This document shows positions 46,157 to 59,709 of a DNA stretch of 64,000 nt, piece after piece (position 1 is the stretch's first letter; each line of letters begins with the position of its first letter). The notes under the pieces were generated by a model that saw only the letters and a program-made list of their open reading frames with translations, made no database searches and was not told the origin of the DNA. This DNA is from Mesorhizobium sp. ORS 3324 (lineage in GTDB: Bacteria > Pseudomonadota > Alphaproteobacteria > Rhizobiales > Rhizobiaceae): assembly GCA_000824825.2 (NCBI GenBank), contig LM655205.1, positions 1 to 64,000 of the forward strand, written 5' to 3'. The translations under genes were made by a program, and so were the position numbers.

Positions 46157-47197
46157 TCAGTCCGGCCAAATGCCCGGGGACGTCGGGGCGCCGTTGTCAT
46201 ATTTTGACAGCCATTCCACGATCTTGGGCCGATTGGTGACAAAGCCCTTGTAGGTCGCAAGCTCGATCGGCAGGTCGCGGATGACGCGATGGAAGCGCCT
46301 CGCCCATTTCGGCACCGTCACCAGTTCGTCCAGCTTGATGAGGTAGCAGCGGATCGGAAACACCAGGGCATTCGAGCGGGGAAGACGGAAGAAGGTTTGG
46401 AGCTCGACGCGCAAATGCATCATTTGCCCCATGTTCTCCAGCGTCAGGTCTTTCTTCATCACGCCCCATTTGTGGTAGTTCTCGGGGCTTGTGTCGAGCA
46501 GGGGATTGACCGTCATCGTCCAGTTTAGACGGCGCGCCGGCGAGCCCTGCCGCACGTTCAGGAGGAACTTCAGGGCGCGCTGGAAGATGCCCATCTCGTG
46601 CGCTTTCGGCACCGGGGCGTGCCACTCGAAGAAGTTCATGCCGATGTCGAAATCAAGGCTCCAGTCGGCCTGTGTCGTCACCATGCCGGCGTCCATCCAC
46701 AGGTTGTCGTCACGCTGGTCGAGCACGGCAAAGTCGCCCTGGGTCTGCCGCGTGATGTATTCCATCGGGCCATAGGGCAATGTGGTCTCGTCGAGGAAGG
46801 TGAACTTCTGCTCGATACCCAGCGGACGGTTGATCCAGTGCCATTTGGCGCCATCGCGGTGCAGCTCGAAAAGCTCGGGATACTCCTCCGCCTTCGAGGT
46901 CATGATCAGCTCGAGCAGATCCCAGCCGGCCAGGGTCATGTGCGGCAGTGACTGGCAGCGTAAAGGATCTTCGGCAAGGACGCGGGCACGATCGCGCATC
47001 TCGGAAACGTAGTGCTCATCGACGTCGAACGTCCGCTCGTAGACGCTGCCCGGACGGTATGACTTATGCGGCTCGAGGTTCACCGAGTACATGTAGCTGT
47101 CCTCGGGAAACGGGAAAGGGAAGCGCTTCACCGCCTCCGGCGAGTTGCGGAAGGTGAAGTCGTCGTGGAACGTTTCTTCCTTGAAGATAACAGTCAT
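46157..47197 (-). CDS. dmmC: dimethylamine monooxygenase haem subunit (DUF3445/HODM alpha-like)
   Basis: A 346-residue protein of the DUF3445 family, the haem-containing catalytic subunit of haem-dependent oxidative N-demethylase. The enzyme converts dimethylamine, O2 and NAD(P)H to methylamine and formaldehyde. Family features are YMYSVNLEPHKSYRPGSVYE near the start and RLNWTMTVNPLLDTSPENYH. ATG 47197 has GAGGA upstream; the longer frame is discarded. It is the last of four genes, in the order D-A-B-C, and the symbol follows that order. A similar oxygenase on another secondary amine is an alternative. Confidence 0.8.
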   Translation of the reverse strand: MTVIFKEETFHDDFTFRNSPEAVKRFPFPFPEDSYMYSVNLEPHKSYRPGSVYERTFDVDEHYVSEMRDRARVLAEDPLRCQSLPHMTLAGWDLLELIMTSKAEEYPELFELHRDGAKWHWINRPLGIEQKFTFLDETTLPYGPMEYITRQTQGDFAVLDQRDDNLWMDAGMVTTQADWSLDFDIGMNFFEWHAPVPKAHEMGIFQRALKFLLNVRQGSPARRLNWTMTVNPLLDTSPENYHKWGVMKKDLTLENMGQMMHLRVELQTFFRLPRSNALVFPIRCYLIKLDELVTVPKWARRFHRVIRDLPIELATYKGFVTNRPKIVEWLSKYDNGAPTSPGIWPD

Positions 47198-47213
47198 CGC
47201 AGCGTCCTCCTCG

Positions 47214-48179
47214 CTATCGATCCAACACCAGCGTTTTGCCTTCGAAGCGGGATACGCAAGGCATGATCCTGGTGCCGCTGGCACATTGCGCCGGCGTCAG
47301 CCAATGGTCCTTGTGCAGGAACGTTCCCTCGTATTCGAGGACATCGGTCTCGCACTGACCGCAGGCTCCGCCGCGGCACAGATAAGGCGCCTCGACGCCG
47401 GCTTCTTCCATCGCTTCGAGCAGGCTTTGATGTTCGCCGACCTGGATCGTCTTGTTCGAGCGTGCCAGCATGACCTGGAAGGGCTTGCCCGAGGCAGGCG
47501 CAAGGAATTCTTCGTGGTGCACCGCCTCGCGCGGCCATCCGAGTGCGGCCGCGGTCTTGCGCACCCAGGCGATCATGCCTTTAGGCCCGCAGACATAGAC
47601 ATGGGTGCCGAGCGGCTGCCCGTCGAGCAATGCCGGCAGCTCGATCTGCTCGCCCCGGTCGTCATGGTAAAGATGAACGCGCGGGCGATAGTTGGCCACA
47701 AGCTCGTCCGCGTAGGAAGCAAGGGACGTCGTCCGCACGGAGTAGTGCAGTTCGAAGTTTCCATTCATGGCGGCGAGCTGCTTGATCTGCGCCAGGAACG
47801 GCGTGATGCCGATGCCTCCGGCAAGCAACAGGTGCTTTCGCGCCCGCAAATCCAGCGCGAAGAGATTGACCGGGTTGGAGATGACCATCTCCATCCCCGG
47901 CCTCACTCGCCGGTGCATGAACAATGAACCGCCTCTTCCATTGTCGTCGCGGCGGATCGAGATCGAATAGCCCTCCCGGTCGGCGGGATCGCTCATGATC
48001 GAGTACGGATTGCGGCGCACGCGATCCTTGTCGTTCATCTCCACGACCGTATGCGCGCCGCCCGAGAAAGTAGGCATCGGACCGCCGTCACGGCGCACGA
48101 ACCTGAATCGTGTGACAAGCTCGTTGACCGGCGTGACCTCGGCCACTTTGACGAGTATCTTTGCGGCTCCTGCGCTCAT
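47214..48179 (-). CDS. dmmB: dimethylamine monooxygenase reductase subunit (FAD/FMN + 2Fe-2S)
   Basis: A 321-residue phthalate-dioxygenase-reductase-like electron donor. The flavin domain has RRNPYSIMSDP, the nucleotide domain HLLLAGGIGITPFLAQI and HVYVCGPKGM, and the C-terminal ferredoxin domain the plant-type cluster ligands C-x4-C-x2-C in YLCRGGACGQCE with the fourth Cys in MPCVSR. It takes electrons from NAD(P)H to the haem subunit. Its ATG overlaps the stop of the upstream dmmA-like gene (ATGA, 48176-48179), so they are coupled. Confidence 0.85.
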   Translation of the reverse strand: MSAGAAKILVKVAEVTPVNELVTRFRFVRRDGGPMPTFSGGAHTVVEMNDKDRVRRNPYSIMSDPADREGYSISIRRDDNGRGGSLFMHRRVRPGMEMVISNPVNLFALDLRARKHLLLAGGIGITPFLAQIKQLAAMNGNFELHYSVRTTSLASYADELVANYRPRVHLYHDDRGEQIELPALLDGQPLGTHVYVCGPKGMIAWVRKTAAALGWPREAVHHEEFLAPASGKPFQVMLARSNKTIQVGEHQSLLEAMEEAGVEAPYLCRGGACGQCETDVLEYEGTFLHKDHWLTPAQCASGTRIMPCVSRFEGKTLVLDR

Positions 48180-48775
48180 CTGAACCGCTCCACCGATTGG
48201 GGTATGTTGCCGGGATCTTCCGCGTCGACGCGCACGCCCTGGAAGGCCGCTATGCGGCGGGAGTAGTGATCGCGCACGAACAGATGCAGCCCGCAATGGG
48301 AGCACTGGAAAGGGTCATGCGTCACGTCTTCGGTGATGCCCTTGCAATGCACGCACTGCACGCGCCGCACGGTGGAGCCGCGGTGCTCCGTCTGGATTGC
48401 GGAATGGGGGATGCCGGCCTGCATGGCCTCGAGCATCGCCTGTCCCATCAGTCCCTCGGTCCCCGCCAGATAGACCTGCAGACCCATGTGCGCTCCGGCC
48501 AAAACTCGCCGCAGTCGCGGAAGCGCGGCCTCGTAGCTGGGCCCGACATAAATTTGGGCAGGGGCCAGGTGCTCCAGCCTGGCCACGAACCTGTCCCCTG
48601 TCTTCTTCGGGATGTAAACAATGTGCGCCCCGGCGAAGAAATCGGGAGGCGCAGAGGCGGCCAAATCGAGGATCGCCTCGGCACCTTCGGCGTCGGCGAC
48701 CATCAGATGCAGCCGCCCCGGCCGCATCTCCAGCACGCCATAGACGGGGCGGCTTGGAATCGAGCCTTCTAACAC
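48176..48775 (-). CDS. dmmA: dimethylamine monooxygenase small subunit, DmmA family
   Basis: A 199-residue protein. N-terminal half resembles a flavodoxin-reductase-like lobe (GAHIVYIPKKTGDRFVARLE); the C-terminus has a zinc-ribbon pattern C-x2-C ... C-x2-C in CVHCKGITEDVTHDPFQCSH. This is the layout of the DmmA family in dimethylamine monooxygenase operons. The start is GTG 48775 with GAGGG about 11 bases upstream. Its exact job in the complex is not known to me. It is 71 bases after dmmD. Confidence 0.8.
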   Translation of the reverse strand: MLEGSIPSRPVYGVLEMRPGRLHLMVADAEGAEAILDLAASAPPDFFAGAHIVYIPKKTGDRFVARLEHLAPAQIYVGPSYEAALPRLRRVLAGAHMGLQVYLAGTEGLMGQAMLEAMQAGIPHSAIQTEHRGSTVRRVQCVHCKGITEDVTHDPFQCSHCGLHLFVRDHYSRRIAAFQGVRVDAEDPGNIPQSVERFR

Positions 48776-48846
48776 TGACTTTGACCCTCGGCTCCGGTTT
48801 GGTTGGTTTGCGGGCTTGAACCCTGTTTACGACGTCTCACCGCGAC

Positions 48847-49980
48847 CTATCCCCTGGCGGTGCGCCGCTTCTTTTCCGCATCAAAGAATGGCATCGAATG
48901 GGCGACGCAGGGGATTTCCCCGGTCGAATTCCGAACGGTCATCTTCACGCCGTCGACCGCGCAGTCCACCGGCATTCGGGCAATGCCGATGTTGTGCTTG
49001 TTGAGGCTGGAGTACATGCCGATCGTCACCACACCGACCTTCTTGCCATCCTTGAACAAGGGCGCGCCCTCTTCGGCCGGCGTCGTGCCCTCGAGCTTGA
49101 CGCCATAGATCTTGAAGCGCTCCTTGCCCTTCAGCCGATAATGTTCCTCGGCGCCGCGGAAGCCCACCTTGCCGGGCGAGACGGTGAAGTCGAGCCCGAG
49201 TTCCCACAGCGTGTCGCCGGGACCTTCGTTCTCGAAGGGATACTTCTCCGAATTGTCGTAAGGGAAAAACAGCAGATAGCTTTCGGCCCTCAGCAGATCG
49301 AGCGTCGTGAACCGGCAAGGAATGATGCCCATGCTCGCGCCCTCCTCGAGGATCCGGTCCCAGATCGCAGGAGCATCCTGGCCGCGGCAGAAGATTTCAT
49401 AGCCGCGCTCGCCCGTATAGCCAGTGCGCGAGATCGTCACCGGCAGACCGAAAAGCGAGGTGTGGATATGGCTGAAGTAGTTCAGGTTGCGGATGCCTTC
49501 GACATGCTTGTTCAGGTAGTCGACGGCGAGTGGCCCCTGCAGCGAGAGGTCGTGGAGATTGTCATCGAAGCGGATGGCCACGTCGCGCCCGGTAGCCGCC
49601 ATGGTGAGTTGCTCGTGGGCGCCGCCCGAGCCGTGCACGACCATCCAGCTGTTCGGCCCCATACGGTAGATGACGCAGTCGTCGATGAACTTGCCGGCGT
49701 CGTTCAGCATGGTCGCGTATACCGAACGGCCAGGCATGATCTTCTCGGCGTTGCGGGTCGTGGCGCGGTCGATGATGTGGGAGGCTGCAGGGCCGTTCAA
49801 ATGCACCTTTTTCAAGCCGGAAACGTCCATGAGGCCGGCTTTGGTGCGGATCGCCAGATATTCGCGTTCCGGGTCGCCCGAATACTGCCAGGCGGTGCCC
49901 ATGCCGCTCCAGTCTTCCAGCTTCGACCCTAGCGCGCGGTGACGATCGGCGAGCGTGGAAAATCTCCAGGAATTGGTCAT
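48847..49980 (-). CDS. dmmD: GcvT-like tetrahydrofolate-binding subunit of dimethylamine monooxygenase
   Basis: A 377-residue aminomethyltransferase-fold protein. Motifs VYATMLNDAGKFIDDCVIYR, ISRTGYTGERGYEIFCRG and GLDFTVSPGKVGFRG are typical. Family members bind tetrahydrofolate and capture formaldehyde as methylene-THF. In HODM-type enzymes such a protein is one of four subunits, and the gene order here matches dmmDABC. ATG 49980 with AAGGGGA upstream is chosen over a longer frame. DMSP demethylase DmdA and glycine-cleavage T are related but do not fit the context. Confidence 0.8.
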   Translation of the reverse strand: MTNSWRFSTLADRHRALGSKLEDWSGMGTAWQYSGDPEREYLAIRTKAGLMDVSGLKKVHLNGPAASHIIDRATTRNAEKIMPGRSVYATMLNDAGKFIDDCVIYRMGPNSWMVVHGSGGAHEQLTMAATGRDVAIRFDDNLHDLSLQGPLAVDYLNKHVEGIRNLNYFSHIHTSLFGLPVTISRTGYTGERGYEIFCRGQDAPAIWDRILEEGASMGIIPCRFTTLDLLRAESYLLFFPYDNSEKYPFENEGPGDTLWELGLDFTVSPGKVGFRGAEEHYRLKGKERFKIYGVKLEGTTPAEEGAPLFKDGKKVGVVTIGMYSSLNKHNIGIARMPVDCAVDGVKMTVRNSTGEIPCVAHSMPFFDAEKKRRTARG

Positions 49981-50009
49981 TGCATTCCCCTTTTTTATAC
50001 CAATTATTG

Positions 50010-50031
50010 AACCAGTTTGCGAGAACTGGTC
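50010..50031. promoter_or_regulatory. inverted repeat upstream of dmmD, candidate operator
   Basis: AACCAGTT-TGCGAG-AACTGGT: ACCAGTT at 50011-50017 is the exact complement of AACTGGT at 50024-50030. It is 30 bases upstream of the dmmD start, and the AACTGGT half-site recurs in front of tmm at 52416. Probably bound by the GntR regulator encoded next to it. Confidence 0.65.
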
Positions 50032-50285
50032 CTTGAAATCAATACTCCCGTTAAAATTTTTTACCTGAGAGCGAAATGGCTGATTCGAAACCCCGGCAAG
50101 GAAGAGACGAAAGCAAACCGAAATGGCGGGCGAGACACGTGCGCGAAACAGACCGCGAAACGCCAAATTGGCGATCAGGATCAGCTGAACGCCCAAAGGG
50201 CGCGGTCATCGGTTGCGGCTTGCGTGGCCAACCAGAACCATCGCAAATGGATGCGAACTTTCGGATGTCGAAAGGAACGTCGTTG
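50032..50285. other. region between the operator and the GntR gene
   Basis: No protein gene is supported. An open frame continues upstream from the GntR start to 50076, but it is low in coding character (many Arg, Gly and charged residues) and lacks a ribosome site. Likely promoter and untranslated leader for the regulator. Confidence 0.4.
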
Positions 50286-51011
50286 ATGTCATTGTCATCG
50301 AACCATGAGGCTGCCTTGGCACTTATCGCGGATCATTCAATCACTGCCACGGTTCGTGTCGTGGTGGACACGCTGCTGGCGCGGATAACCTCTCAGCAAT
50401 ACACCACCGACGAACGACTGCCCTCGGAACGAACATTGGCCGGTGAACTTGGCGTCGCCCGAAACACGGTTCGCGAAGCGCTGGACATACTTGAGAAACA
50501 TGGCTTCATACGCCGGCGTGCCGGCAGCGGCAGCTTCGTGAAGGGTCAGGCGGCCCCGGATGACGCGACCGGAGGAGTTGCTGCCGAGACGAGCCCGCTC
50601 GACCTGTTGGTGATGCGCGGAATAATCGAACCCGACATGATGAGACTCGCCATCATCAACATGTCGCCGCGTGCCATTGAGGGACTGAGCGAGACACTGT
50701 CCGCCATGGAAGGGGTCCAAACCGACGCGGCGGAATTTGCCCGGCTCGAGGAAGAATTCCACCGCCAGGTGGCTCGCGGCGCCGGAAATCCGCTGCTGAC
50801 GTCATGCTACGATCTGCTGATCCAGGCTCGCCGCCAGGGCTTCCGCGCCGCCCTCAATCGGCGGCATCTGACACCCAGGCGAATACAAGACTACCAGCGG
50901 CGTTACAACACGCTGCTCAATGCGATCATCGCCCGGGATATCGAGAGTGCGGTCGAATTCACCAAGCTGCTGCTGATTGAGGAGCAAAAGCTGCTTCTGC
51001 AGGAAGACTGA
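50286..51011 (+). CDS. GntR/FadR-family (FCD) regulator of the methylated-amine genes
   Basis: A 241-residue regulator. The GntR helix-turn-helix is LPSERTLAGELGVARNTVRE followed by LEKHGFIRRRAGSGSFV; the FCD ligand domain occupies the rest (RGIIEPDMMRLAIINM, FARLEEEFHRQVARGAGNP). AAAGGA nine bases upstream supports ATG 50286; 50265 and 50247 are alternatives. It is divergent from dmmDABC. The AACTGGT sites at dmmD and tmm are the best candidates for its operators. FCD domains commonly bind small organic acids or metal-chelated ligands. Confidence 0.85.
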   Translation: MSLSSNHEAALALIADHSITATVRVVVDTLLARITSQQYTTDERLPSERTLAGELGVARNTVREALDILEKHGFIRRRAGSGSFVKGQAAPDDATGGVAAETSPLDLLVMRGIIEPDMMRLAIINMSPRAIEGLSETLSAMEGVQTDAAEFARLEEEFHRQVARGAGNPLLTSCYDLLIQARRQGFRAALNRRHLTPRRIQDYQRRYNTLLNAIIARDIESAVEFTKLLLIEEQKLLLQED

Positions 51012-51018
51012 GCCTCGG

Positions 51019-52314
51019 TCAGTCCGATCCGGCCGCGATGCGCAGCTCTCCGGAGACAGTGGAATGGCGCTGGTCCCACATCAGCCCAAGCGCGCGCATT
51101 TCATCGCGCAACCGGGCGCCGTGCCTCTGCAGCCAAGTCGGGACCGACCCAAAGGCTACGATACGCGCTTGGCCATTCGTAATGCGCACGACGGGCCAGT
51201 CGCCGATCAAGGCGTTGTCATTCCCGAACAGATCCGAGCCCGCCCATTTCGCTATCCCGAACGCATGTTCGCCGAGCCCGCCATGCTTCATCGCTGCGAG
51301 AACGGAGACAGGCGCCGCCGTTCCAGCCTTCTCGACCGCCGCATGCCAAAGGTCGAGCGTGGCAACATATTCCCAGGAAACCGCGCTCCAGCTGTCCGGG
51401 AAACGCCGATTGTACTCCGCGAAGAACTCGGCTGGGCGATTGAAGAAGAAGGCCTTGTCGCGGAGCTCTGGATCGTCGAAGTCCGGGAACTGGAACAGAA
51501 AGCCCTCCATGAAATCGATCGATGTCCGCTCGACCAGCCGCCGATAATAGTCGGCAGTGCAAGAAATGATCTGCCCTCGAAATCCGGACCGGAACGCAGC
51601 CTCGGTCAGCGCGTGAACCATCGGCTCATAGCTCGTGCACCAACACAAAATGTCGGGACTGCCGGTCAGCATTGCGCGCAGTATTTCGTCGGCGTTCGTA
51701 GCCTCCGGCGCGTAGCGGATCTCGCCCACCGACGCGATCCCCTCGGCCGCAAAGGCGGCCCGATAGGTAGCCAGCGAAGGCAGGCCCAGCGCATCCGTCT
51801 GGCTGCACATCGCCACGCGGCGCAGGTCGGGGCGGTTGCGTGCAAGCCATTCGACTGCCGTGACGTTGTAGAGGGGATGGATCTCGCTGGGCGCGATCAG
51901 GTACGGTGTGTCGGGCGAAAGATCGCTCGGCAGCAGCGTCGAGGTCAGAATCTTGCGCGACATGAGATAGTCCTGGATCGGACGGAACGTGTCGCCTCCG
52001 TGCATCATAAGCAGCCCTACCCCGTGATCCTGCACGAGGCGGCGAGCCCCTTCCGCCGCCCGATCGGGATCATAGCCGCAGTCCTCGGCCAACAGTTGGA
52101 CATTGTGCCGTGTCCCGCCGATGAGCATTCCGCCAGTGCGATTGATCCAGTCCACCCAGATGCGGCAGCCGTTCAATCCCGGCAGCCCCCAAGACCGAAC
52201 AGGCCCACTGAGCGGCCCGAGAAAGCCTACTTTGACCACGCGCTGCGCACCGACGCCCAGCCGTTTGACCTGGGCGTTCACTGCAAGTCGTTGCACTAGG
52301 CTGCTGGCGTTCAT
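51019..52314 (-). CDS. periplasmic-binding-protein-like protein (LIVBP/AmiC type) without export signal
   Basis: A 431-residue protein of the branched-chain-amino-acid/amide-binding fold. VKVGFLGPLSGPVRSWGLPG begins the first lobe, followed by RLVQDHGVGLLMMHGGDTFR and later GQIISCTADYYRRLVERTSI. ATG 52314 with GGAGGA seven bases upstream is the clear start. The N-terminus MNASSLVQRLAVNAQVKRLG has no hydrophobic core, so no signal peptide. No permease or ATPase gene is adjacent. This resembles AmiC, which senses amides in the cytosol. It could be a methylamine/TMAO sensor that partners a regulator, or a degraded transporter component. Confidence 0.75.
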   Translation of the reverse strand: MNASSLVQRLAVNAQVKRLGVGAQRVVKVGFLGPLSGPVRSWGLPGLNGCRIWVDWINRTGGMLIGGTRHNVQLLAEDCGYDPDRAAEGARRLVQDHGVGLLMMHGGDTFRPIQDYLMSRKILTSTLLPSDLSPDTPYLIAPSEIHPLYNVTAVEWLARNRPDLRRVAMCSQTDALGLPSLATYRAAFAAEGIASVGEIRYAPEATNADEILRAMLTGSPDILCWCTSYEPMVHALTEAAFRSGFRGQIISCTADYYRRLVERTSIDFMEGFLFQFPDFDDPELRDKAFFFNRPAEFFAEYNRRFPDSWSAVSWEYVATLDLWHAAVEKAGTAAPVSVLAAMKHGGLGEHAFGIAKWAGSDLFGNDNALIGDWPVVRITNGQARIVAFGSVPTWLQRHGARLRDEMRALGLMWDQRHSTVSGELRIAAGSD

Positions 52315-52390: not shown

Positions 52391-52430
52391 TTGACAAATT
52401 CGCCGTTTCGATCATAACTGGTTTGAACCA
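52391..52430 (+). promoter_or_regulatory. tmm promoter overlapped by an inverted repeat
   Basis: TTGACA at 52391-52396 and CATAAC at 52413-52418, 16 bases apart, look like a sigma-70 promoter for tmm. Over the -10 lies AACTGGT (52416-52422), part of TGGTT-TG-AACCA (52419-52430). The half-site also occurs upstream of dmmD. Binding here would block or reposition RNA polymerase. Confidence 0.6.
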
Positions 52431-52478
52431 AAAGAACCAATCCATCACAAACCGGTTCAGACCAATGGGAGAATGATG

Positions 52479-53822
52479 ATGAAGAAACGGATTGCCGTTA
52501 TCGGTGCTGGTCCGTCCGGCTTGGCTCAGCTGCGCGCCTTCGCGTCCGCAGCACAGAAGGGCGCAGAGATTCCCGAGATCGTCTGCTTTGAAAAGCAGAA
52601 GAATTGGGGAGGGCTGTGGAACTACACCTGGCGCACGGGCCTGGACGAATTTGGCGAGCCGGTTCACGGCTCGATGTATCGCTATCTCTGGACTAACGGC
52701 CCCAAGGAAGGTCTGGAATTCGCCGACTACTCCTTCGAGGAGCATTTCGGCAAACAGATCGCTTCCTATCCGCCCAGGGCCGTGCTGTTCGACTACATCG
52801 AAGGGCGCGTGAAGAAGGCCGGTGTCCGCCCATGGATTCGTTTTTCCACCGTTGTCAGGTATGTCACCTGGAGCCCGGAGACCCGCAAGTTCACCGTGCG
52901 TGCGCACGATCTTCCCAAGGACCGATCCTACTCGGAAGAGTTTGACCACGTCGTCGTCGCGTCGGGCCATTTTTCGACACCGAACGTTCCCGAATTCCCC
53001 GGCTTTGACACTTTCAACGGTCGCATTCTCCATGCGCACGACTTCCGCGACGCCCGCGAGTTTATCGGTCAGGACATACTGATCATCGGAACCAGCTACT
53101 CGGCCGAGGATATCGGTTCCCAGTGCTGGAAGTACGGTTGCAAGTCGGTCACGGTCAGCCATCGTACCGAGGCAATGGGCTTCAAGTGGCCGGCCAACTG
53201 GAAAGAGGTGCCGCTGCTGACCAAGGTCGAGGGCAACATCGCAACCTTCAAGGACGGCTCGACCGCAACCGTCAATGCGATCATCCTCTGTACCGGCTAC
53301 AAGCACCATTTCCCGTTCATATCGGACGACTTGCGGCTGCGTACTGCAAACAGGCTGGCCGCGGCAGACCTCTACAAAGGCACGGTCTACGTCCACAATC
53401 CGGCGCTGTTTTATCTCGGCATGCAGGATCAGTGGTACACCTTCAACATGTTCGACGCGCAGGCCTGGTGGGTGCGCGACGTAATCCTCGGCAGGATCAA
53501 GCTGCCGGCCTCGAAGAACGAACTGACCGCCGATGTCGAAAAACGGATCGCGGCCGAAGACGCTGGGGAGGATAGCTATGACGCCATCCGCTACCAGGGC
53601 GACTACGTCAAGGAATTGATCGCCGAGACCGACTATCCGAGCTTTGACGTTGACGGCGCCAACGAGGCGTTCTTCCAGTGGAAGAAGCACAAGATCAAGG
53701 ACATCATGGGGTTCCGGGACAATAGCTACAAGTCCGTGATGACCAGTTCCATGGCGCCGAAGCATCACACGCCGTGGAAGGACGCTCTGGACGATACGAT
53801 GCAGAGCTATCTGCGCAACTGA
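52479..53822 (+). CDS. tmm: trimethylamine monooxygenase
   Basis: A 447-residue class B flavin monooxygenase that oxidises trimethylamine to TMAO with NADPH and O2. FAD motif GAGPSG lies near residue 10, the FMO signature F-x-G-x3-H-x3-F is in [11 protein letters not shown], and the NADPH-site GTSYSAED follows. Phrases such as [25 protein letters not shown] and [12 protein letters not shown] are close to bacterial Tmm. Of three in-frame ATGs, 52479 has GGGAG at the right distance. It is divergent from the binding-protein gene and starts the TMA pathway with tdm. Confidence 0.92.
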
Positions 53823-53963
53823 ACTTACGCTGCGCAGCGATTTGTCCGGAACCCTACCGACCGTCACTCCAGTGCGTCTTCAGTATGGTTCCGGGCAGAG
53901 GAGGACAATACCACTCCGTAGTTCGCCAAGAAGAGAATGGCAGAAGATGAGGAGGGAGCCGGC

Positions 53964-55031
53964 ATGCTGACCGCTCAGGCTGCACATAGGTCGTTTAGTT
54001 TCTACCTCTTGCCCGACTTCTCGCTTCAAGCTTTCTCTTGCGCGGTGGAAGTATTGCGGTTGGCCAATGAGGCGATCGGCAGGAACGTCTATAGCTGGCA
54101 AGTCATATCGGACGACGGGCAACCGATATTGTCGAGCTGCCGGCTGGCCGTCAGCGCCGACTCCGCCTTGAGAAATGAACGGGAGCGAACCCAAAGAACA
54201 AACCTGACCTCAGCCGCCGTGGTATGCGGCGGTAGTGCCATTCCGCGCCCCGACAGGCAACTCGACGCGTGGCTAAGGGAATGCCGAATGCGTCGCATTC
54301 CCCTCATTTGCATCGGCAGCGGTACCATCGTCGTTGCGCGGGCCGGACTGGCGGACGGGCGCCGGTGCGCCGTTCACTGGGAACAGCTTCCGCTATTTTG
54401 CGAGCAGTTTCCGGGCATAGAGTCCACTCAGACGGCCTTTGAACACGATGGAGATCTGCATACCTGCTCGGGTGGGGATGCCCCTTTCGACATGTTTCTT
54501 CACCTGGTTGAACGTGACCATGGTTCAGCCATCGTCAATCGCATCTGCGAAAAGGCCATCGCCTACCGAATGCGTTCGGCGGGAGAGCGACAGCGCCTGC
54601 CCCTGCATTCTCGCGTCAAGCTCAACCATAAGGCAGTGATGAAGGTCATTGGCCTGATGGAGGCAAGCTTGGATGATCCTATGCCGGTCGACGATCTTGT
54701 GGCGTTAAGCGGAATATCGCGCCGGCAGATCGAAAGGCTTTTCGACAGAGAGTTGGGACGCTCTCCGAACCGATACTACATGGAACTGCGCCTGGAGCGC
54801 GCGCAGTTGCTTCTTGTGAGCACCAACTTGCCGGTCGTCGAAGTTGCCGTGGCTTGCGGTTTTATCTCGCCGTCGCACTTTTCCAAAGTCTATCGCGAGG
54901 CCTACGGATGCGCTCCGCATCAGACACGACTGGCTGCCCGTGCGGACGGGCGCGTCGATCTGATGGACCCGGCGCTGCTTGGATTGAACTGCACCGAAGT
55001 GTCCCAACGCAGGTTGTCGATGACGGCGTAG
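53964..55031 (+). CDS. GlxA-family regulator (DJ-1/PfpI + AraC HTH)
   Basis: A 355-residue regulator. DJ-1-like domain with SFYLLPDFSLQAFSCAVEVL and CIGSGTIVVARAGL; AraC helices in VDDLVALSGISRRQIERLFD and VVEVAVACGFISPSHFSKVY. Its branch (GbdR, SouR, CdhR) often senses glycine betaine, sarcosine or carnitine, which suits a methylated-amine cluster. ATG 53964 follows GGAGGG; 53937 is an alternative. It lies between tmm and tdm, so TMAO or a related amine could be its ligand. Confidence 0.87.
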   Translation: MLTAQAAHRSFSFYLLPDFSLQAFSCAVEVLRLANEAIGRNVYSWQVISDDGQPILSSCRLAVSADSALRNERERTQRTNLTSAAVVCGGSAIPRPDRQLDAWLRECRMRRIPLICIGSGTIVVARAGLADGRRCAVHWEQLPLFCEQFPGIESTQTAFEHDGDLHTCSGGDAPFDMFLHLVERDHGSAIVNRICEKAIAYRMRSAGERQRLPLHSRVKLNHKAVMKVIGLMEASLDDPMPVDDLVALSGISRRQIERLFDRELGRSPNRYYMELRLERAQLLLVSTNLPVVEVAVACGFISPSHFSKVYREAYGCAPHQTRLAARADGRVDLMDPALLGLNCTEVSQRRLSMTA

Positions 55032-55072: not shown

Positions 55073-57445
55073 ATGCTGAACACGATCTACCCTCCCGTCC
55101 GCGGTGGACCGCCGCAGGCGAGCCGTATCATCCGTCCCGGGGGATTGACCCTGCCCGCCGGCACCGAGCGCTACATCGTTGGCGGTGCCGGAGCGATGTT
55201 GATCGACATTGCGGTAGGCGACCGCATCACCGTAACGAATGACGAGGGCGGCCAAATCTGCGAGGTCGTCGTGGCCGACGCGTCGGGCAGAATTGACGCT
55301 GGCGTCGTCGGCCATGGTCCGAACTCGGATGCGGCGGGTCTGAAGGCGCTGCTAACCAGTCAGGACGGCAGCCTGCAACGGCTGCGCAAGGCGTTAGAGA
55401 TCCGTGGTATCGACCTCGCCGCGGCGGGCGGGCTTCGCTTCTTCGGCGCGACAACGCCGCCGAAGACCAATGTCGAGCTTACTGTCGAGCGCGGCGGCTG
55501 GCTCGTCATCGCCGCGCCAGGGACCGACATGGCACCGGACGACCAAGAGACCGCGACGCCGTTGGTCGTCCACGTGCGGCGCGCGACGGTGCGCTTGCGC
55601 GAAGCCTCCCGGGATTTGCCAGATCCGCTTGCCGATCCGGTTCTCGATCTTCGCGTGCACTCCTCGACGGCAGAGGCCTATTTCGTCAAGGCCGGGGACT
55701 ACATTCAGATCATCGATGTCGACGGGCGCCAGTGCACCGATTTCCAGTGCTTCTCAGCGCGCAAATTGGACAAGGGAAAGGAGCATGCGCTCGACGTCAC
55801 GGCCACGCGCAGCGCGATGGGGCATGCCTATCCGTTGCCCGGCCTCCATTCGAAGTACTACGATCAGGACTTCCTGCCGCTGGTCGAGGTCGTGCAGGAC
55901 ACTTGCGGTCGGCACGACGCCTTCTCGCTGGCATGCTATGCGAAATATTATGACGATATCGGCTATCCAGGCCATATCAACTGCACGGAAAACTTCAACA
56001 AGGCGCTCGGCTCATACGGCGTCGGTCCGCGCGGCGGCTGGATGGCCGCCAACTTCTTCTTCAATACCGGGGTCGACGCGCATGGCGTCATGTATGCCGA
56101 CGAACCGTGGTCGCGGCCGGGCGACTACGTACTCTTGCGGGCGCTGACCGACCTCGTCTGCGTCAACTCCGCATGCCCTGACGACACGACGGCGGCCAAT
56201 GGCTGGAATCCGACCGACATCCATGTGCGCACCTATTCAGGGGTCGAGAAATTCCAGCGCGCCGTGGCGATCCGCCCCACTCCCGATTCGGAGCCAAAGA
56301 TGACCAAGGAAACTGGGTTTCACGATCGCCTGTCCAAGCTGACCCGCAACTTCGTGGAGTATCGCGGCTACTGGCTGGCCAACAGCTACGTGGAAGCCGG
56401 GCCGATCGAGGAATACTGGGCTTGCCGGCAGAAGTCGGTGCTGATGGACCTTTCCGCCCTGCGCAAGTTCGAGGTGACGGGACCGGATTCGGAAGCGCTG
56501 CTTCAGTACACGCTGACGCGCGACGTGAAGAAGCTGGCGGTCGGCCAGATCGTTTATAGCGCCATGTGCTACGAGCATGGCGGCATGATTGACGACGGCA
56601 CGTTGTTCCGGCTCGGTCAGGACAATTTCCGGTGGGTCGGCGGCGACGAGTATTCGGGCATATGGCTGCGCGAACAGGCGGAGAAGCTCGGCCTCAACGT
56701 CCTGGTCCGCAGTTCCACCGACCAATTGCACAACATTGCCGTGCAGGGGCCGGAGAGCCGCGAACTGCTGAAGAAGGTCATCTGGACGCCGCCGCATCAG
56801 CCGTCGATCGCCGAACTCGGCTGGTTCCGTTTCACCGTTGGCCGCGTCGGGGATGACCAAGGCCTACCTGTCGTCGTGTCGCGTACCGGCTACACGGGCG
56901 AGCTGGGCTACGAGGTCTGGTGTCACCCCAAGCACGCGAGCGGGGTCTTCGACGCGATCTGGGCCGAGGGGGCAGCGCACGGATTGACGCCCATGGGCCT
57001 GGCCGCCCTTGACATGGTTCGGATCGAGGCGGGATTGATCTTCGCCGGCTATGACTTCTCTGATCAGACCGACCCGTTCGAGGCGGGCATCGGCTTCACC
57101 GTGCCGCTCAAGTCCAAGCCCGAGGACTTCATCGGGCGCGACGCGCTGATCCGGCGCAAGGAGCATCCCTCGCGCAAGATGGTCGGGCTGGACATCGAAG
57201 GGGCCGTCGCGGTCGGCCATGGCGACTGCATCCATCTTGGGCGCGCCCAGATCGGCGAGGTCACATCATCAACGCGTTCGCCGATCCTCGGCAAGAACAT
57301 CGCTTTGGCGCGCATCGACGTGGCCCATGCCGATATCGGCACCCAGGTCGAGATCGGCAAGCTCGACGGCCACCAGAAGCGGCTCCCGGCCACGATCGTC
57401 CCGCTATCGCACTATGATCCTAAGAAAACCCGTCCACAGTCCTGA
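55073..57445 (+). CDS. tdm: trimethylamine N-oxide demethylase (DUF1989 + GcvT)
   Basis: A 790-residue fusion. The N-terminal third to half is DUF1989 (RIIRPGGLTLPAGTERYIVG, GDYIQIIDVDGRQCTDFQCF); from about residue 410 on it is a GcvT-like domain (LTRNFVEYRGYWLANSYVEA, SRTGYTGELGYEVWCHPK). Known Tdm proteins have this layout and split TMAO to dimethylamine and formaldehyde, the latter passing to tetrahydrofolate. GAGGAGG precedes ATG 55073; an upstream frame overlapping the regulator gene is not used. It is five bases before the haemoglobin gene. Confidence 0.92.
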   Translation: MLNTIYPPVRGGPPQASRIIRPGGLTLPAGTERYIVGGAGAMLIDIAVGDRITVTNDEGGQICEVVVADASGRIDAGVVGHGPNSDAAGLKALLTSQDGSLQRLRKALEIRGIDLAAAGGLRFFGATTPPKTNVELTVERGGWLVIAAPGTDMAPDDQETATPLVVHVRRATVRLREASRDLPDPLADPVLDLRVHSSTAEAYFVKAGDYIQIIDVDGRQCTDFQCFSARKLDKGKEHALDVTATRSAMGHAYPLPGLHSKYYDQDFLPLVEVVQDTCGRHDAFSLACYAKYYDDIGYPGHINCTENFNKALGSYGVGPRGGWMAANFFFNTGVDAHGVMYADEPWSRPGDYVLLRALTDLVCVNSACPDDTTAANGWNPTDIHVRTYSGVEKFQRAVAIRPTPDSEPKMTKETGFHDRLSKLTRNFVEYRGYWLANSYVEAGPIEEYWACRQKSVLMDLSALRKFEVTGPDSEALLQYTLTRDVKKLAVGQIVYSAMCYEHGGMIDDGTLFRLGQDNFRWVGGDEYSGIWLREQAEKLGLNVLVRSSTDQLHNIAVQGPESRELLKKVIWTPPHQPSIAELGWFRFTVGRVGDDQGLPVVVSRTGYTGELGYEVWCHPKHASGVFDAIWAEGAAHGLTPMGLAALDMVRIEAGLIFAGYDFSDQTDPFEAGIGFTVPLKSKPEDFIGRDALIRRKEHPSRKMVGLDIEGAVAVGHGDCIHLGRAQIGEVTSSTRSPILGKNIALARIDVAHADIGTQVEIGKLDGHQKRLPATIVPLSHYDPKKTRPQS

Positions 57446-57450
57446 CGCAT

Positions 57451-57873
57451 ATGGAAACAGTTGCCAAGGAAACCCTTCTTGCGCAGATCGGCGGCGAAAC
57501 AGCTTTGCGCGCTCTGGTCGACTGCTTTTACGACCTGATCGAGACCGATCCTCGCGGAAGGCCGTTGCTGCGGCTGCATTTTCGCGGACATGGTGTCGAC
57601 CATGCCCGCGAGGAACAGTTCAACTTTCTGTGCGGCTTCCTCGGCGGCCGTCGTCACTATCTGGAAAAGCACGGGCACATGGACGTTCGCCTCATGCACG
57701 CGCATGTGCCGATCTCGGCAGCCGATGCCGAGGACTGGCTGGCTCTCATGGATCGAGCGATCGCCGAAATGCGGCTTTCAGGTCCCCCGGCAGACAAGAT
57801 GCGCTCGGCATTGCGCCGTGTCGCACTGACGCTGGTCAACGATCTTGGGGAATGGGGGGTGGGAAGCGCTTGA
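57451..57873 (+). CDS. group II truncated haemoglobin
   Basis: A 140-residue 2-on-2 globin. B-helix Tyr in CFYDLIETDPRGRPL, proximal His in LMHAHVPIS, and the group II-specific Trp in AEDWLALMD are visible. It starts five bases after tdm, so it is cotranscribed. Such globins bind O2, NO or sulfide. Behind an oxygen-using pathway (Tmm, Dmm) it could supply O2 or remove NO, but its presence in this operon is unusual. The identity as globin is firm, its role is not. Confidence 0.88.
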   Translation: METVAKETLLAQIGGETALRALVDCFYDLIETDPRGRPLLRLHFRGHGVDHAREEQFNFLCGFLGGRRHYLEKHGHMDVRLMHAHVPISAADAEDWLALMDRAIAEMRLSGPPADKMRSALRRVALTLVNDLGEWGVGSA

Positions 57874-57999: not shown

Positions 58000-59709
58000 A
58001 TGAGCGCTTTATCTGACACATACGCGGAGGCAGCCGCGGGACAGTTGCACAGAAGCATTGACTGGCGAGGTGCCTTCTGGGTGGCAAGCGGCGTCCCCGC
58101 CCTCGTTCTGTTCTCTATCGGCGGCATTGCTGGAACGACTGGCAAGCTGGCCTTCGTGATCTGGACCGTGTCCATGATCATGGGTTTCCTGCAGTCGTTC
58201 ACATATGCCGAAATCGCCGGTCTGTTCCCAAACAAGTCAGGTGGCGCCTCGGTCTATGGCGCAACCGCCTGGCTGCGGTATTCGAAGTTCATCGCGCCGC
58301 TGTCGGTTTGGTGCAACTGGTTCGCCTGGTCGCCGGTGCTGTCGCTCGGTTGCTCGATTGCCGCCGCTTACATCCTAAACGCGCTGGCACCGGTGCCGAT
58401 CTTCACCGAGAATTCTCCGGAGGTCGTTGCCTATATCGGGGCCCATGCCGGCACGAGTGCCGCCGACGCCATCACGGCGGTGACGGCCGCCGCAACGCCT
58501 GCCATCCGCAACTGGACGCTCTATAGTCACGCGCTCGGGCCAGTCAGTTTCTCGCTCAACGCCACCTTCTTCATCGGCGCGATCCTGATGCTGATTATCT
58601 TCGCGATTCAGCATCGCGGCATTCTGGGCACAGCAAGCGTGCAGAAATACATCGGCCTCCTGGTCATCATCCCGATGCTGATCGTCGGTGTGGTGCCGTT
58701 CTTCACCGGACAGATCAACTATGACAACTTCTCGCCATTGTTGCCACTAGCGGCCGCCTACGCGCCCGAACCGGGCACCTGGAATATCGCCGGATGGACG
58801 CTGGCGCTCGGCGGCATGTTCATCGCGGCATGGTCGACTTATGGCTTCGAGACCGCCGTCTGTTACACGTCGGAGTTCAAGAACCCCGGCACCGATACCT
58901 TCAAGGCGATCTTCTATTCCGGCCTGCTCTGCATGCTTCTGTTCATCCTGGTGCCTTTCACCTTCCAGGGGGTGCTTGGTCTCAACGGCATGCTGGCAAC
59001 GCCGATCGTAGACGGCTCGGGCGTCGCCGACGCGTTGGCCGGCATGGTCGGCGGCGGCAGGCTGATCCACAGCCTGCTGGTGATGTTGATGATCTTGGCG
59101 CTGGTGCTGTGCATCATGACGGCGATGGCTGGTTCCTCGCGCACGCTCTACCAGGGCTCGGTCGACGGCTGGCTGCCGCGCTATCTTAGCCACGTAAACG
59201 AGCACGGCGCGCCGACGCGAGCCATGTGGACCGACCTCGGCTTCAACCTGATCGTGCTGGCCATCGCCTCGGCCGACGCCACGAGCTTCTTCTTCATCCT
59301 CGCCGTGTCGAACTGCGGCTACATTATTTTCAACTTCCTCAACCTCAACGCCGGATGGATCCACCGCATCGACAACGGCCATATCGAACGGCCGTGGAAG
59401 GCGCCGACCTGGCTCTTGGGGATCGGGGCGGTCTTTGCCTACGTCAACGCCATGTTCATGGGAGCCGGAGCCAAGGTCTGGAACCCGATGGCGCTGTGGG
59501 CCGGCCTGTTAACCGCCGCCATGATCATCCCGGTGTTCTGCTTCCGTCACTATGTCCAGGACGGCGGCCAGTTCCCCGACCACATGCTGGACGATCTCGG
59601 CATGAAGTCCTCCGATCTCGTGGTCAAGAAGGCGGGGATCTTGCCCTATGCTACACTTGTAGCAGGCCTGATCGTGGTGCTGGTGGCAGACCGGATCTTC
59701 GTGCTTTGA
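58000..59709 (+). CDS. APC-superfamily amino acid/amine permease
   Basis: A 569-residue inner-membrane transporter with about twelve membrane helices. The first helices contain SIGGIAGTTGKLAFVIWTVS and AEIAGLFPNKSGGASVYGAT, typical of the APC fold. By place between tdm-globin and the mgd genes it may import a methylated amine or amino acid. A hairpin terminator follows at 59768. There is a 126-base gap behind the globin gene, so it may share that transcript. Confidence 0.85.
   Translation: MSALSDTYAEAAAGQLHRSIDWRGAFWVASGVPALVLFSIGGIAGTTGKLAFVIWTVSMIMGFLQSFTYAEIAGLFPNKSGGASVYGATAWLRYSKFIAPLSVWCNWFAWSPVLSLGCSIAAAYILNALAPVPIFTENSPEVVAYIGAHAGTSAADAITAVTAAATPAIRNWTLYSHALGPVSFSLNATFFIGAILMLIIFAIQHRGILGTASVQKYIGLLVIIPMLIVGVVPFFTGQINYDNFSPLLPLAAAYAPEPGTWNIAGWTLALGGMFIAAWSTYGFETAVCYTSEFKNPGTDTFKAIFYSGLLCMLLFILVPFTFQGVLGLNGMLATPIVDGSGVADALAGMVGGGRLIHSLLVMLMILALVLCIMTAMAGSSRTLYQGSVDGWLPRYLSHVNEHGAPTRAMWTDLGFNLIVLAIASADATSFFFILAVSNCGYIIFNFLNLNAGWIHRIDNGHIERPWKAPTWLLGIGAVFAYVNAMFMGAGAKVWNPMALWAGLLTAAMIIPVFCFRHYVQDGGQFPDHMLDDLGMKSSDLVVKKAGILPYATLVAGLIVVLVADRIFVL

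Follow-up and report, generated by a model that had tools for sequence, protein, structure and literature searches.

A binding protein without an export signal, encoded between tmoR and tmm in Mesorhizobium sp. ORS 3324, as a probable internal sensor for methylated amines

The binding protein SBP1 of Mesorhizobium sp. ORS 3324 probably senses methylated amines inside the cell. Judging from sequence comparison, it is reasonably likely that SBP1 serves as a cytosolic receptor, with DMA as the first and TMA as the second candidate ligand, and that its partner at the promoter of tmm is TmoR, a repressor of the GntR/FCD type. At the level of sequence, this proposal draws on the fold, the absence of a signal, an origin in one step, the way in which SBP1 co-occurs and co-evolves with TmoR, and conserved operator-like sites upstream of tmm.

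Gene neighbourhood and predicted fold of SBP1

The window analysed was the whole stretch of 64,000 nucleotides in which SBP1 lies. The features around SBP1 are as follows.

46157-50196, minus strand: dmm genes, for a GcvT-type protein, DmmA, a reductase and haem-dependent N-demethylase subunits
50286-51011, plus strand: regulator of the GntR/FCD type, assigned as the TmoR orthologue from its position and family (synteny with the locus described in PMC13390433)
51019-52314, minus strand: SBP1, type I binding protein of 431 aa without signal, forming a single clade with its orthologues; a receptor in the cytosol is proposed
52240-52314, minus strand: N-terminal extension of SBP1, conserved, about 25 residues, replacing the Tat signal, consensus MxxSSFAHRLAVxSxLPRLSVGM
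52473-53822, plus strand: tmm, trimethylamine monooxygenase (NF058570, 827 bits, cut-off 675)
53937-55031, plus strand: GlxA/AraC-type regulator (GbdR model, 296 bits, below the cut-off of 480)
55076-57445, plus strand: tdm, TMAO demethylase (NF053776, 1245 bits, cut-off 1100)
58000-59709, plus strand: TMAO permease of the Methylocella type, APC-type (NF053774, 894 bits, cut-off 690)

The SBP1 frame was intact on the minus strand, from the ATG at 52314 to the stop at 51019, and a Shine-Dalgarno sequence (GGAGG) lay 8 bases 5' of the ATG, confirming the strong start that the first-pass annotation had claimed. The GntR/FCD gene was tail to tail with SBP1 and ended 7 bases from its stop; the start of this regulator at 50286 is a guess within the open reading frame 50076-51011. 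SBP1 and tmm were divergent and 158 bp apart.

SBP1 belonged to Pfam Peripla_BP_6, scoring 172.1 bits (gathering cut-off 31.7) over residues 27-381, the whole fold. The AlphaFold model had a mean pLDDT of 87.3 and a pTM of 0.85; pLDDT was below 50 at residues 1-4, 7-23 and 418-431 and mostly above 70 elsewhere. The binding-protein fold earlier proposed for 51019-52314 was thus supported by both the family score and the model. Binding proteins of the UrtA, Liv and aromatic-acid types gave the best structural matches to the model, and AmiC followed closely. As UrtA, Liv-type and AmiC structures matched SBP1 about equally, the fold alone cannot separate an importer component from a sensor.

No ABC permease or ATPase was detected among the two sets of ten window neighbours scanned, in agreement with the earlier statement that neither stands beside the gene, and the linked permease and ATPase genes that mark a HAAT importer were likewise absent from these scanned neighbours. 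The nearest transporter named around SBP1 was the APC-type TMAO permease at 58000-59709. A bacterial-type globin gene was present at 57451-57873, directly 3' of tdm (PF01152, 73.5 bits), and several other loci likewise had globin matches close to tdm or dmm.

Absence of an export signal

Inspection of residues 1-26 of SBP1 showed neither a twin-arginine motif nor a hydrophobic core. Orthologues were sampled as the best 80 of 411 confirmed relatives, a set that leans to close ones, and nine plasmid orthologues were added from the 9 of 16 plasmid records that were fetched. Tat and non-Tat N-termini were poorly separated by hydropathy alone, and counts of the motif and of uncharged stretches were therefore used. 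The twin-arginine pattern was absent from all 80 named orthologues and all nine plasmid orthologues, compared with its presence in 30 of 30 paralogues of the same loci (for L033, L034 and L037 the N-terminus was taken from the match start, a few residues inside). The longest uncharged run before the core had a median of 8 residues in the SBP1 orthologues versus 16 in the paralogues. An AxA-like triplet before the core was less telling, with 33/80 named and 1/9 plasmid SBP1 proteins against 30/30 paralogues. The absence of a secretion signal was thus borne out, and orthologues with a clear signal, named in the first-pass annotation as evidence against a cytosolic sensor, did not appear among the 89 when checked by the twin-arginine pattern. 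By the same counts SBP1 lacks the export signal of HAAT importer binding proteins. The N-terminal extension was modelled by AlphaFold as a low-confidence helix at residues 4-18.

Export of SBP1 as part of a transport system, by way of an unusual or overlooked signal, is very unlikely. Such a role would agree with the homology to exported proteins, with the AxA-like triplets, and with frames open far upstream in some loci and hydrophobic stretches 5' of the Met in a few, e.g. L054, L064, L078, L080, L086 and L091. Against it, the Tat motif was absent from 89/89 proteins, a Tat-type copy was lacking in the window's own genome (which gave one match at 1e-30), and in many loci the frame was open for just 1 to 10 codons upstream of the Met. 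In others it was long (up to 927 codons, L103), but the hydrophobic stretches there were not conserved and preceded a conserved Met, and export through a missed start was rejected.

Of seven control loci from the same genome, five were used (L004 and L008 were left out); a signal-like start was seen by eye in four and none in L002. The L002 gene (L002:1489-2622, contig C13) encodes another Peripla_BP_6 protein without visible signal, which is possibly a second cytosolic binding protein, and comes after a gene with HD-type and LuxR-type features by eye.

Origin of SBP1 in a Tat-exported family

Paralogues about 50% identical to SBP1 and carrying Tat signals, here called SBP2, were encoded in 30 of the 80 SBP1 loci. 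In all five inspected loci with an SBP2 gene (L040, L044, L065, L070 and L071), permease and ATPase genes of the Liv type lay downstream of it; they were checked against Pfam in L040 and L065. In a tree of 62 rows, built by a quick method with the signal region excluded, the 26 SBP1 rows formed one clade (SH-aLRT 100) rooted among the 36 Tat-type rows, which corresponds to one change of state.

The earlier annotation had also named binding-protein genes coupled to permeases as evidence against its reading. Such genes do exist, but they belong to the sister clade with Tat signals, and SBP1 distances correlated with theirs at only r 0.21. A link to the importer was rejected as the sole explanation of SBP1, as no Tat-type copy was present in the window's own genome or in five near relatives and the distances were uncorrelated. 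The importer link was nevertheless kept in mind because of four loci (L044, L060, L065 and L074) in which SBP1 lay away from tmm and TmoR, just upstream of SBP2 and importer genes. This placement beside the importer and not TmoR is the strongest result against a receptor role, and it fits a role in transport equally well.

That SBP1 is a decaying importer relic is hardly credible. The signal was indeed lost, once by the tree; even so, dN/dS (NG86) was 0.058 to 0.117 in six SBP1 pairs, indicating purifying selection, the frame was uninterrupted over the match in 80/80 named loci, and 135 columns were invariant among 17 diverse orthologues.

A Tat-exported HAAT-type binding protein was divergent from tmm in 10/10 class-sample genomes holding both. 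The loci considered for this Tat-type protein were L126, L127, L129-L136, L151, L153, L040 and L065, with Liv-type genes downstream where inspected. Together with the Liv-type genes, the Tat-type protein is a candidate importer of TMA or of an amine related to it.

Co-occurrence and co-evolution with TmoR

SBP1 was adjoined by tmm in 74 of the 80 loci, by TmoR in 73 and by both in 71. The tmm-SBP1 gap had a median of 159 (144-183), and a median of 51 bases separated the SBP1 and TmoR matches. The triad was broken in nine loci. The eight genomes searched for eight of these all held tmm and TmoR, with TmoR apart from SBP1 in six; in the ninth locus, L070, TmoR was about 2 kb away. Roseovarius aestuarii (G105, locus L071) had two TmoR copies (C40:6261 and C88:51507), one adjoining tmm and the other adjoining SBP1 and SBP2.

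A regulator fed by the sensor had been suggested in the first-pass annotation, with the GntR and GlxA proteins as candidates. The GntR/FCD candidate, TmoR, holds up, given its place beside SBP1 in 73/80 loci, and the GlxA/AraC protein is the less likely partner. A close homologue of the latter (88-96%) adjoined tmm in 8/80 loci, and a further 8 had a distant homologue (26-29%) there.

Among 101 related genomes, tmm was found in 64 (63 over the cut-off), TmoR in 9 and an SBP1-type protein (at least 59% identity) in 10. All nine TmoR genomes were within the ten SBP1-type genomes, and the 55 tmm genomes without TmoR gave no SBP1 match at 1e-30. The odd SBP1 genome, G069 (84% complete, about 500 contigs), had neither a tmm nor a TmoR match, which counts against a receptor role. 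Sampling around G241 (10 genomes) added little. In one Mesorhizobium with tmm and without TmoR and SBP1, the gene divergent from tmm (L149:6978-7703) looked by eye like an XRE-type regulator, and the tmm of this genome may be wired to another regulator.

In 387 Alphaproteobacteria, searched by scoring the best few candidates per genome (4 for SBP1, 7 for TmoR) so that misses are possible, tmm was found in 25 genomes and the protein family in 19. Two genomes had an SBP1-type protein, and these same two were the ones with TmoR. The remaining 17 family-positive genomes held Tat-type proteins only and no TmoR; the Tat-type call in this class sample was by pattern in 18 of 19 loci and by eye in the last. 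Of 72,556 plasmid records, 16 matched SBP1 (1e-80) and 16 matched TmoR (1e-35), with identical accessions. All these presence counts are of non-independent events, as relatives share history.

Distance matrices were compared for 47 non-redundant loci out of the 71 with all three genes. The correlation was 0.846 for SBP1-TmoR, 0.261 for SBP1-tmm and 0.320 for TmoR-tmm. The partial correlation was 0.833 for SBP1-TmoR (bootstrap 0.78-0.88) and -0.020 for SBP1-tmm (-0.15 to 0.11), and the SBP1-TmoR correlation was reached in 0 of 1000 permutations. The SBP1-SBP2 correlation was 0.213 (17 loci) and that of SBP1-tdm 0.262 (21 loci); in these 17- and 21-locus sets SBP1-TmoR held at 0.83-0.87, and TmoR-tmm was 0.53 in the 17-locus set. 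The SBP1 and TmoR genes abut, and linkage could add to their common history. However, the tmm-SBP1 gap (159) is nearly as short, yet is not accompanied by a common history, and linkage alone is therefore a poor explanation. SBP1 tracks TmoR rather than tmm.

These results also bear on a role of SBP1 as a cytosolic amine carrier or buffer, delivering TMA to Tmm or damping free TMA and DMA, and merely co-regulated with TmoR. The divergent position next to tmm in 74/80 loci would suit a carrier, as would the placement with importer genes in four. We consider it unlikely, since SBP1 distances do not track tmm (partial r -0.02), 55 of the 64 tmm genomes lack SBP1, and in Paracoccus aminovorans (see below) SBP1 lies beside a TMA dehydrogenase and an FCD regulator, with tmm not near.

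TmoR and its FCD domain

In Ruegeria pomeroyi, the GntR gene tmoR (SPO1553) encodes a repressor of tmm, and the passages of PMC13390433 drawn on here place tmoR adjacent to tmm in 12 of 13 TmoR strains, usually with one 'gene of unknown function' between. By position, this intervening gene is SBP1. The window gene at 50286-51011 has the same arrangement, a GntR/FCD gene beside tmm with one gene between, and was assigned as TmoR by position. A 2015 supplementary legend (PMC4744692) lists tmoR and tmm together with a periplasmic binding protein of the HAAT family, described as uncharacterized. Open-access literature searches found no study of the SBP1 protein itself. To the knowledge of the first-pass annotation, a sensor for TMA/TMAO or methylamine feeding a regulator had not been described; as regards regulators that respond to these amines, this needs correcting, as TmoR is published and TmaR is a further published regulator (PMC13390433).

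The FCD residues of TmoR were compared with the solved FCD protein 2di3 in 74 sequences, leaving out the short TmoR row of L051. The first Asp was replaced by Glu in 74/74, the next position was Tyr in 58/74 and His in 15/74, the third residue was Tyr or Phe for His in 74/74, and the last position was His in 58/74. These four positions are those we take to be the usual metal ligands. FCD regulators usually bind their own ligand. The metal site of TmoR departs from the usual one, and the substitutions suggest that TmoR may sense otherwise than FCD proteins normally do.

It is quite unlikely that TmoR senses alone through its FCD domain, with SBP1 an accessory that has no part in signalling. The general habit of FCD regulators speaks for such sensing, as do the effectors inferred for TmoR from transcripts in pathway mutants (DMA the main one, TMAO minor and TMA none; PMC13390433). 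In the text drawn on here, the 2026 scheme of that paper shows TmoR acting without a partner, and this, together with TMA being no effector, also counts against a receptor role of SBP1. On the other side, the TmoR purified there comprised just residues 1-100, the DNA-binding part (PMC13390433), and TmoR was never found without SBP1 in 16/16 plasmid records and 9/9 TmoR genomes of the 101 relatives.

Operator-like sites upstream of tmm

The region between SBP1 and tmm contained the following features.

52391-52396, plus strand: TTGACA, candidate -35 element for tmm, kept in most aligned loci
52419-52430, no strand assigned: operator-like inverted repeat TGGTTTGAACCA, with GGTN4ACC at 52420-52429
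52454-52463, no strand assigned: second operator-like inverted repeat GGTTCAGACC, GGTN4ACC

Both GGTN4ACC sites of the window were downstream of the TTGACA at 52391. In the window and 74 loci, 65 of the 75 tmm-SBP1 gaps contained GGTN4ACC (84 sites vs 2.8 expected from shuffles), and the other spacers of 1-8 gave just 0-5 sites in the same 75 gaps. The site was also found in 7/8 plasmid tmm-SBP1 gaps, and in 2/10 tmm gaps with a Tat-type protein and without TmoR (L127 and L134). In five genomes where SBP1 had moved from tmm, the sites remained with tmm (L111-L115). No operator-like site was found upstream of the four relocated SBP1 genes (L044, L060, L065 and L074), and such sites preceded 2 of 21 SBP2 genes (L071 and L089). 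We infer that the GGTN4ACC sites are operator-like for a FadR-type repressor, and their location upstream of tmm is consistent with repression by the window TmoR. The extended form TGGTN4ACCA had four further matches in the window away from tmm (11061, 11942, 37910 and 57591), giving five in total vs 0.32 expected.

A second setting in Paracoccus aminovorans

On plasmid IV of P. aminovorans, an SBP1 orthologue (56.5% identical, without signal) was tail to tail with an FCD gene (38% to TmoR). This pair (L164:13974-19394) adjoined a gene for a 732-aa protein matching TMA dehydrogenase (PDB 1djn, 1315 bits), beyond which lay iron-sulfur, ETF and GcvT-type genes. There was no tmm match in the 29 kb fetched around the pair. 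The repeats before the TMA dehydrogenase operon were short and of another layout. Hydantoin-type genes were also seen near the pair. The other eight plasmid loci fetched, one of which was another P. aminovorans plasmid (strain BM109), all had tmm (72-77%) beside SBP1. Of seven plasmid records with a TMA dehydrogenase above 70%, two had the SBP1-FCD pair, both from P. aminovorans; this restriction to 2/7 records with close TMA dehydrogenases, and to one species, also counts against a receptor role.

As the pair lies beside TMA dehydrogenase without tmm, the common factor looks like TMA breakdown and not Tmm. Tmm and TMA dehydrogenase are different kinds of flavoenzyme, and their pathways share the TMA substrate and downstream DMA, not TMAO. 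Because of this shared TMA and DMA and the published mutant data, DMA would be favoured as the SBP1 ligand.

SBP1 might alternatively be the sensor partner of TmoR for some other ligand, e.g. an amino acid or a nitrogen-status metabolite. This would be in keeping with the Liv/HAAT family, solved relatives of which bind amino acids, urea and aromatic acids. It appears improbable, given that SBP1 is mostly placed in TMA-degradation clusters or with the linked importer, and that the Tat-type relative adjoins tmm in 10/10 class-sample genomes with both.

Discussion

The results might be explained as follows. SBP1 would descend from a binding protein that was exported by Tat and served an ABC importer of the Liv type, one often encoded beside tmm. 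In one lineage the signal would have been lost, the fold kept and a conserved N-terminal segment gained, and this signal-less lineage would have become fixed as the partner of TmoR. SBP1 would stay in the cytosol, bind a methylated amine there and contact TmoR, and ligand binding would relieve the repression of tmm.

More tentatively, and as a possibility short of an even chance, SBP1 and TmoR could form a portable two-protein regulator, in which a cytosolic protein derived from an importer is the receptor for a GntR/FCD repressor with a degenerate FCD site. The pair would move between Tmm and TMA dehydrogenase settings, and the importer of the exported sister would be a candidate for the uptake of this ligand. 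No description of such a regulator was found.

In the sea, the breakdown of TMA constitutes a large flux of nitrogen (PMC13390433). Its regulation is currently being worked out, and in the parts of that paper considered here the 2026 TmoR effectors rest on transcript levels in mutants (PMC13390433). If SBP1 is a receptor, it would represent a second evolutionary route from importer binding protein to cytosolic sensor, with an exported sister available for comparison.

AmiC of Pseudomonas aeruginosa is a type I binding protein that has no signal and acts in the cytosol, as the receptor of a small nitrogen compound. SBP1 shares this fold, with a Z of 33.6 and an rmsd of 3.2 over 348 residues against 1pea and a Z of 33.2 against 1qo0, scores that are not distinctive because many exported proteins equal or exceed them against SBP1, and on sequence it also has no signal peptide. 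In contrast to this likeness, the identity is 17%, SBP1 falls below the cut-off of the AmiC-type Pfam family Peripla_BP_5 (22.5 vs 27), and SBP1 arose inside a Tat-exported family. AmiR is an ANTAR antiterminator, whereas the proposed partner of SBP1 is a GntR/FCD DNA-binding protein; no ANTAR match was found in SBP1 and nine scanned neighbours, where the regulators were GntR/FCD and AraC.

The R. pomeroyi TmoR (SPO1553) locus has the same gene order, GntR gene, one gene and tmm, but the published scheme, as far as the cited text extends, has TmoR alone and leaves the intervening gene unstudied (PMC13390433). HAAT/Liv-type importer binding proteins (Peripla_BP_6) share fold and family with SBP1; SBP1 differs from them in having no signal, no importer among the scanned window neighbours and no co-evolution with SBP2 (r 0.213). 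TmoXWV and the TMAO permease belong to the same pathway as SBP1; TmoX is a binding protein of another type, and the window permease is APC-type.
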